Shown here: positions 53,301-57,139 of the stretch, in pieces
How positions within the stretch are numbered: the first letter of the stretch is position 1
Layout: the number at the start of each line of letters is the position of its first letter
Origin: Lumbricus terrestris
Taxonomy: Eukaryota; Annelida; Clitellata; Crassiclitellata; Lumbricidae
DNA length: 64,000 nt
NCBI GenBank assembly: GCA_949752735.1
Contig: OX457039.1
Location: forward strand, 72,390,432-72,454,431
Reading direction: 5' to 3'
Position numbers and translations under genes: made by a program
Notes under the pieces: model-generated
What the model was told of the DNA's origin: nothing
Database searches by the model: none
Seen by the model: only the letters and a program-made list of their open reading frames with translations

Positions 53301-56300
53301 GAGGCTAGGGGCTAAGCCCCCCTAAAAAAGGCCATCCATTTTTTTCCCATGTAAAAATTAAAAAAATTGACGATTTACCCCCTTTAGCCCCCAAAACTGA
53401 AATCCTGGCGCCGCCACTGCCAGCCAGTCATCCTTCCATCGATCCATCCGTCCAACCATCCATCCATCCATCCATCCGCCCATCCATCCAACCATCCATT
53501 CATCCATCCACAATCCATCCATCCGTCCAACCGTACCTGGATGGCTGCAGGCGTTCCGATCTCCCTCCTCGCTTAAAGCCTTGATTGTTCCCCACTTTCG
53601 AATCACCATCCACTCCGTGCTACATTGTTTTGTCGGGACTTCTTAGTAGCGGCAGCGAGGATCTGGAATACTCTTCCGCCTTCTGTTTGTCGCACTAATA
53701 GTCTTAGTTTTCTGTAAAGTCTACACTCTTAGAGATGCACTTTTTTTAGCTGTCTTGCTACATCAAAATTAATTACATTAGCCTAAATGATGTTAAATGT
53801 CATGTCGAGATCAATCTCACTAGTAAGCAAACCAAAGCAGAGAAAACTGGAAAAGTTGTCATTAGAAAGCTCACACACATGTACGCATGCACCTACACAC
53901 ACACACACACACACACACACACGCACGCACGCACGCACGCACGCACGCACGCACGCACGCACACAGTGTGTGTACACACATGTATGTATGTATGTATGTA
54001 TGTATGTGTGTGTGTGTGTGTGTGTGTGTGTGTGTGTGTGTGTGTGTGTGTCGTATCATAATATTATCGTAAAACTTATAGAGCTCTCCAGCAACATAAG
54101 GTTCGTGTTAGGTTTAGAGGATCTTTCAGCACAGAAGCACAGGTGAAAAAGAAACGTCTCTAGAGAGCGAGAGGTGGATGCAGGGTAGAGCCGAGACATG
54201 AGCTTCAACCGTAAAAGAGGGGAAGGCCATTCCACGTAGAGGGACCTATTTACAGCAAATGCTCGGCTCTGAGTCATGGCACACCGAACCCGAGGACAAA
54301 GAGGTCAGAACGGTGTGTAGAGCGCAAGGATCGAACAGATGTCTCTGAGAGAGGCTTATGCAATATATTGTTGTGGTTCAAGTGGCCGTCTAGGAGTATG
54401 ACTAACAAAGTTAAGGTCCCAATGATGAAAATAACGTCGATTTATTCAACATAGCAGTATTTACAGCGAATGTACAGAGTTACCTTCTTCAAGAAGCGAC
54501 ACCGGAACGGCCGGTAGAGCAGCACAGCAAGCAGTATAGGACGACCAGTCTAAACAAGACTCTTTGTAGTCGAACGGCAATTCAGTAAACGCAATTCCAC
54601 CAACGAGGCGAAGACAGCGTAGAAAATGACACATAGGTCGAACTCGCATCCCAGCGAGGGAACACCACGAAGCGTAAACACGCTCAACAGCAAACGTACC
54701 ACAGCCCAAGCATACTGCAACTGCCTTACCCACCTTACTACGCAGCCTATTTTATAGGTACGCTAAAGCATTGGCGGCAAGACCATCCTTCTTATCAGAC
54801 CACCTGCTAGTCATGTCTAGTGTTAGCAGCAAAACGGGGCGTAGACACTAACTGTCTAACAATATGCATATAGTCGGAGAGATATTTGGGACAAGACAAA
54901 GTTGGGACTTGAAGATGACGATGATGTATGTATCGCATGCATGTATGTATAATTGTATATGTATGGACGTATGTATATTCGTTTATTCCCAAAAGGGCAA
55001 AACGCTGTAGGTGTACATTAACAAACTGAGCAGTGTGGCTACGTATGATTGAGCTTGTTAGTACATGTTTTTAAATGACATTCTTGGGATAAAGTTCACC
55101 GAGTCTTTATTGGAGGGTGAAACTGTGAGCCGAAAGTTATATAATGGATCTCGCTGCAGTGGACAGAGGTTACGAAGGAAATAAAGTTAATTTCCCTGAT
55201 AGGCTTTAAACAGCCGCCTCTTGTGCTAACGCTTCAGGCGCCAGAGCATCAAATTATCAATGTGTTCGTATTGACAGATGTTGTTTACTTTCTTTCCATA
55301 GGATTCCATCCGCGCTGGAAAGCATGTGACTTTGAATTCTTCATTTCATGTCCCGAGCTGGCGCTGCTCCACCTGCAAGTGTTCGATCACGAGACGAAGC
55401 AAAGCGATGTCGTCATTGCTCAGTACTCCATTCCAGTTCGTTGCATTCAGAGGGGTACGTGGACATCTTTTCTTTCATTAATTGACAATAAATCTTTGCA
55501 ATTGTTCCACCTTCCACAGCAATGCATTCAGAGGAGTATGTGGACATCTTCTCCTTCATTAGTTGACAATAAATCTTTGCAATTGTTCCACCTTCCACAG
55601 CAATGCATTCAAAGGAGTACGTGGACATCTTCTCCTTCATTAGTTGACAATAAATCTTTGCAATTGTTCCACCTTCCACAGCAATGCATTCAAAGGAGTA
55701 CGTGGACATCTTCTCCTTCATTAGTTGACAATAAATCTTTGCAATTGTTCCACCTTCCACAGCAATGCATTCAAAGGAGTACGTGGACATCTTCTCCTTC
55801 ATTAGTTGACAATAAATCTTTGCAATTGTTCCACCTTCCACAGCAATGCATTCAAAGGAGTACGTGGACATCTTCTCCTTCATTAGTTGACAATAAATCT
55901 TTGCAATTGTTCCACCTTCCACAGCAATGCATTCAAAGGAGTACGTGGACATCTTCTCCTTCATTAGTTGACAATAAATCTTTGCAATTGTTCCACCTTC
56001 CACAGCAATGCATTCAAAGGAGTACGTGGACATCTTCTCCTTCATTAGTTGACAATAAATCTTTGCAATTGTTCCACCTTCCACAGCAATGCATTCAAAG
56101 GAGTACGTGGACATCTTCTCCTTCATTAATTGACAATAAATCTTTGCAATTGTTCCACCTTCCACAGCAATGCATTCAAAGGAGTACGCGGACATCTTCT
56201 CCTTCATTAATTGACAATAAATCTTTGCAATTGTTCCACCTTCCACAGCAATGCATTCAAAGGAGTACGTGGACATCTTCTCCTTCATTAGTTGACAATA

Positions 56301-57139: not shown

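Follow-up and report, generated by a model that had tools for sequence, protein, structure and literature searches.

Does a tandem array that includes a splice donor turn that donor into a ladder of alternative donors, each of which lengthens a protein without breaking its frame, or is the array simply removed with its intron? The question is raised by an 81-bp array at an exon edge in Lumbricus terrestris, within a 64,000-nucleotide stretch of DNA that was analyzed as a whole and is called the window here. The reading that we consider probable is that the array is a young, neutral intronic minisatellite that grew from two 34-bp copies of an exon/intron border, that splicing mainly at the first donor, 55455, removes it, and that some minority leakage is possible.

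Most of a PLC-delta-type gene lies within the window; the gene has approximately 20 exons, with provisional exon numbers and several provisional borders. The top relative of a hand-joined query among 5.8 billion proteins was P0001 (E 4.5e-187), the best local alignment having 65% identity and covering 48% of the query. A tblastn search with P0001 against the window gave 19 ordered stretches from 11766 to 57136, of which two were weak (E 0.009 and 0.019) and a third did not exceed chance (E 5.5); PH, EF-hand, X, Y and C2 regions were found in that order, as expected for a PLC-delta-type gene, and the X-domain exons were also recovered in a genome search. The joined exons matched the C2 family at 53 bits (Pfam). 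The features on which the argument first depends are as follows.

55302..55454, + strand: penultimate coding exon (exon 19), with most of the C2 domain, ending in phase 1 (G/GT); from tblastn of P0001, flanking AG and GT, and the match to PLC-delta-1 in PDB
55455..55456, + strand: authentic splice donor GGG/GTACGT, the top-scoring GT between 55200 and 57060 (matrix 2.22; U1 duplex -7.2 kcal/mol)
57057..57139, + strand: last coding exon (exon 20), ending in a stop; from tblastn and splice joins

Joined exons 19 and 20 align to PLC-delta-1 in PDB (E 3e-27) and to P0001, which runs from CIQEG directly into YRTV without an insert, and the junction is therefore correct. The intron between these exons, which bears the array, is 1602 nt long. 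A PLC-delta-type paralogue on contig C8 has a matching phase-1 intron of about 600 nt that carries no array, and thus the intron probably predates the array.

Other repetitive features were observed in the window. An LTR retrotransposon lies on the minus strand within a PLC intron (31676-40535); its LTR-like direct copies (31676-32959 and 39290-40535) are 97% identical and enclose two frames with reverse transcriptase, RNase H, integrase, protease and zinc-knuckle matches. A TCCA-rich array of about 2.3 kb with periods of 40, 48 and 96 occupies the intron directly before exon 19 (51014-53282), and a 17-bp array of 93 copies in the same gene (42786-44364) begins 29 bp past a putative donor at 42757, which lies outside that array. 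Fragments resembling LINE reverse transcriptase were seen by eye in open stretches at 21800-22900 and 46165-46750.

The array at the edge of exon 19 has the following parts.

55442..56846, + strand: 81-bp tandem array of 17.3 copies, beginning 13 nt inside the exon (TRF); no match to the unit elsewhere in the assembly
55536..56833, + strand: 17 repeated donors, GGA/GTACGT (11), GTATGT (2) and GTACGC (4), at exact 81-bp spacing
55511..56815, + strand: an acceptor-like CTTCCACAG site in each of 17 units, 16 nt upstream of the next donor
55487..56788, + strand: 17 AATAAA hexamers, one per unit

TRF gave a period of 81 with 98% matches, 0% indels and a score of 2691. The preliminary description had placed the start of the unit inside exon 19, with the exon's donor included and seventeen further GTs at exact 81-bp steps from 55536 to 56832, and this was borne out: the array abuts the exon and contains its donor, and GT is present at all 18 positions of the series 55455+81k (k=0 to 17), including all 17 later ones, as in a donor-containing VNTR. 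Splice joins to 57057 from five donors (k=0, 1, 2, 3 and 17) were checked and stay in frame with 27k added residues, and the remaining joins follow by arithmetic, so that the earlier claim of frame preservation in multiples of 27 residues held as well. The exon reading frame is likewise open through the whole array, the stop being reached only at 56912, 486 residues beyond the exon. The 17 occurrences of CTTCCACAG (55511-56807) are spaced by 81 bp, and 16 nt separate the AG of each from the next GT, in agreement with the earlier suggestion that 16-nt microexons are possible, and AATAAA is found in 17 of 17 complete units compared to 5% of 10,984 window 81-mers. The unit 81-mer had 17 matches in the assembly, in a search that skips very common words; since all 17 fall within the array, a dispersed repeat or satellite was ruled out.

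A given frame was open in 0.29 of 3077 real window 81-mers and in 0.35 of 4000 shuffles, and one minus-strand frame of the unit is open as well; the open array frame is within chance expectation. Multiplying the open-frame probability by the one-third chance that a period is divisible by 3 gives a prior of about 0.10 for frame preservation. Moreover, any array that begins in an exon and has a period divisible by 3 will automatically repeat its donor in frame, so the ladder by itself is no evidence of protein length variants.

Arrays are also common in the stretches sampled. As a base rate resting on the window and 145 kb elsewhere, 25 arrays (period of at least 10, at least 3 copies) were found in the window and 47 in the other sequence, or 11 and 21, respectively, for periods of at least 30, with an uneven density (none in 4 of 18 sampled stretches). 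In Amynthas aspergillum, another earthworm, minisatellites are given as 2.65% of the genome in the part of the report drawn on here. When the arrays of the window were placed at random, 49% of trials (27% with periods of at least 30) had at least one array edge within 30 nt of one of 30 predicted splice sites. Splice sites inside arrays numbered 1, compared to 4.0 expected under random placement, a deficit that would fit the exclusion of arrays from exons.

If the 17 repeated donors were used on purpose, the gene would produce PLC in which the penultimate C2 strand begins with an insert of 27, 54, 81 or more residues. In favor of this, every one of the 17 donors preserves the frame and the repeat has no stop in that frame; against it, the array donors are weak. 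With human-type matrix weights applied to these earthworm sites, the array donors score -0.61 (2 sites), -1.12 (11) or -2.65 (4), i.e., 2.8 to 4.9 bits under the authentic donor, and their U1 duplexes reach only -4.7 or -3.5 kcal/mol compared to -7.2 kcal/mol; each of the 17 has A at position -1 (GGA/GT), by which one U1 pair is lost. Between 55200 and 57060, the GTs at 55326, 56867, 56858 and 56924, none of which belongs to the array, score above every array donor, and 16.8% of the 3538 GTs in the window equal or exceed the commonest array donor. The array donors are nevertheless usable in principle, as 5 of the 16 other predicted donors of the gene score below -1.12 (3 of 16 have U1 pairing weaker than -3.5). 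Under naive models in which all donors are equally reachable, the summed share of the 17 would be 60% by matrix odds, where it exceeds that of the authentic donor, or 7% by U1 energy.

Use of an array donor would also change the protein at the join. Donors 2 to 18 read AGGA/GT and not AGGG/GT, so that Ser would replace the Gly that precedes Tyr. Gly-Tyr-Arg at the join was invariant and uninterrupted in all 15 relatives aligned (from the 120 listed), and G[YF]R was found in the last 140 residues of 119 of the 120 relatives listed of 2520 found, the remaining one having GVR. 6-mers of the repeat peptide were found in none of the same 120 listed relatives, which are largely vertebrate enzymes and not independent. 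The preliminary description had posed a choice between length variants and a strong preference for the first donor; the choice stands as posed, and the absence of these 6-mers, together with the first rank of 55455 among nearby GTs, leans toward preference for the first donor, with the array mostly spliced out.

Differences among the units point the same way. Leaving aside position 1 of unit 1 and the positions of unit 18 beyond 34, which lie outside the homology, 7 of 8 variable positions change a residue and 1 is silent; this pattern does not point to coding constraint, although eight positions are a small sample. The protein evidence does not favor length variants. In favor of such variants, the join G745/Y746 of P0001 as modeled by AlphaFold2 falls at the first residue of strand 745-752, following a turn, so that an insert could be looped out without breaking the strand (mean pLDDT 76 for the model and 91 for residues 741-750). 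Exons extended by many units would be unusually long, which again counts against a working length-variant system. Taken with the altered Gly, the absent 6-mers, the mostly non-synonymous changes and the weak donors, the purposeful use of the ladder seems quite improbable. Still a little less probable is an extended form of the same idea, in which the minisatellite acts as an adjustable exon end, where donor choice and inherited copy number together set a graded PLC-delta series with 27n extra C2 residues; if this were true, a DNA array would tune the membrane docking of a signaling enzyme while keeping the frame.

The 533-aa open frame was also searched as a protein. No protein with E <= 0.001 was found among 8000 scored candidates, a weak absence given that PLC relatives were also unrecovered, that the query consists mostly of repeat words, and that length limits may exclude full PLC proteins. 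A read-through coding role of the array was considered and rejected. In Pfam, Calsarcin, Imm12 and ARID pass the whole-protein cut-offs, but 7 of the 8 families have no independently passing stretch and were taken as repeat noise, the eighth being C2 itself (18.4 bits).

The array could affect the gene without adding to the protein. Ranked second, and in our judgement unlikely, is a role as a copy-number rheostat or decoy, in which unproductive events in the array reduce or adjust the amount of functional PLC mRNA, i.e., U1 binding to decoy donors, frame-shifting 16-nt microexons, or cleavage within a stop-free stretch at one of the AATAAA copies. Each unit does carry a donor, an acceptor-like site and AATAAA, and one or two microexons would shift the frame (three restore it). 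On a crude human-type scale, the acceptor-like sites score 2.97, which exceeds 7 of the gene's 13 listed acceptors but does not reach the true acceptor (4.16); the roughness of this scale is evident from the AGs at 56859 and 56868, just past the array, which outscore the true acceptor. Against microexons, splicing from donor to acceptor within one unit would need a 65-nt intron, whereas the 12 measured introns of the gene have at least 212 nt, and AATAAA without downstream context is weak evidence for cleavage. Known arrays bear on this role in both directions. Intronic arrays affect splicing in hTERT and in ABCA7, where, in the cited parts of the paper, a longer array leads to more skipping of exon 19 while one-unit retention is unchanged (PMC5954066); the independence of retention from array length speaks against a simple summed-decoy effect.

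The reading of a young, neutral intronic minisatellite draws on the structure of the array ends, where two further features are found.

55442..55475, + strand: copy A of the founding direct repeat, at the exon/intron border (34 bp, 3 mismatches to copy B)
56819..56852, + strand: copy B of the founding direct repeat, at the array end

The 34-bp flanks differ at 3 sites and the inner units are near-identical (9 of 16 match the consensus, and the other 7 depart from it at one or two sites), so the founding repeat seems to be older than the expansion. No differences were found among the six copies that make up units 3-8, and an alternation at one site in units 13-17 suggests that two units were later duplicated together. 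In the proposed sequence of events, two 34-bp copies of the exon/intron border would have come first and a recent expansion, perhaps by slippage or unequal exchange, would have given rise to the minisatellite. Because the left copy is partly exonic, every new unit received a donor, and because the unit is 81 bp, all donors share a single frame. Most transcripts would then be spliced at 55455, which has better U1 pairing than any array donor, with the array leaving in the 1602-nt intron. Minority transcripts may use array donors, the likeliest being the next (55536) or the last (56832), and would encode 27 or more additional residues, with Ser instead of Gly before Tyr.

The six identical copies could also be taken as a sign that assembly error created the array or set its copy number, which we regard as extremely improbable. 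The edge units differ from the core, as they do in real minisatellites, and HiFi long reads should span 1.4 kb; the L. terrestris assembly is based on 33-fold HiFi long reads with a QV of 57.3, according to the cited parts of its description (PMC10799228). A subtelomeric location was considered as a possible cause of the array. The array lies about 27 kb, and the window about 20 kb, from the scaffold end; no telomere repeat was found in the final 619 scaffold bases, and one of the last 10-kb scaffold stretches includes 2500 N. No second haplotype was seen with a C2 protein query of the assembly, for which the matches were three stretches of the gene's own exons and one paralogue.

Two further observations concern other sequences. 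Degenerate TTAGGG-like blocks lie beside 16-bp TTCGGAATAGTGGACC-type repeats at 17926-18286 and 41130-41520, the two being mutually inverted and 85% alike. Outside the window, a second, split COX1-like stretch (contig C318, 35670-38654) was found in addition to that of contig C331 and is either a nuclear copy or foreign DNA. The COX1 of this genome most resembles that of Eisenia nordenskioldi (96%), followed by those of other earthworms.

Among known systems, the closest is the human ABCA7 intron-18 VNTR, whose 25-bp unit includes the exon-18 donor (PMC5954066). As described in the cited parts of that paper, this array, like the one in L. terrestris, adjoins the exon and carries its donor, and splicing from the donor of the next unit keeps exactly one unit in the transcript, in 2+-1% of transcripts if the paper's figure is taken as that event. 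Retention of 25 bp shifts the frame, whereas the 81-bp unit keeps it; the exon that is skipped more with increasing array length in ABCA7 corresponds in the earthworm to the last coding exon; and the earthworm units, unlike what those parts give for ABCA7, also carry an acceptor-like site and AATAAA. Among the titles and abstract openings listed in searches of the open-licence PMC literature, no frame-preserving donor ladder was found, ABCA7 being the nearest case.

Other systems share single properties. Minisatellites in intron 1 of earthworm metallothionein genes (Lumbricus rubellus and E. fetida) are likewise intronic, and their authors hypothesize no protein-related role; the monomers have mean lengths of 178 and 181 bp, and a donor in the unit is not described in the cited parts (PMC12783039). 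The 38-nt VNTR in hTERT intron 6, about 1.1 kb long and also intronic, affects splice-site choice; skipping of exons 7 and 8 requires it, an effect that may depend on RNA:RNA pairing, with no repeated donor described in the sections cited (PMC6562651). The W1 and W2 exons of Epstein-Barr virus (EBV) IR1 show, according to the cited text, that exon-bearing tandem units can give a variable number of a 66-residue repeat in EBNA-LP; there, the viral units contain whole exons and the protein is known, whereas the earthworm array repeats donors at an exon edge alone and its isoforms are putative (PMC5834210). Intron gain in a potato RdRp gene, as presented in the cited parts, also involved tandem duplication over an exon-intron border with copied splice signals, although one duplication produced one new intron in that case (PMC4974935); the earthworm array has 17 additional donors and no sign that an intron was gained.

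The locus is thus a donor-containing VNTR of the ABCA7 type, set apart by frame preservation, with a copy number taken from one haplotype. It amounts to a natural experiment on donor competition, in which one good donor faces 17 near-identical weaker ones at fixed spacing, and since all of these are in frame, each use of one gives a countable transcript that is not necessarily degraded as a frameshift would be. The locus would offer a clean test of copy-number effects, and would show how selection tolerates an array lying across an exon edge: under a summed-decoy model, array donors should take a larger share as copies are added, whereas in ABCA7, as far as the cited parts of that paper go, retention is flat.
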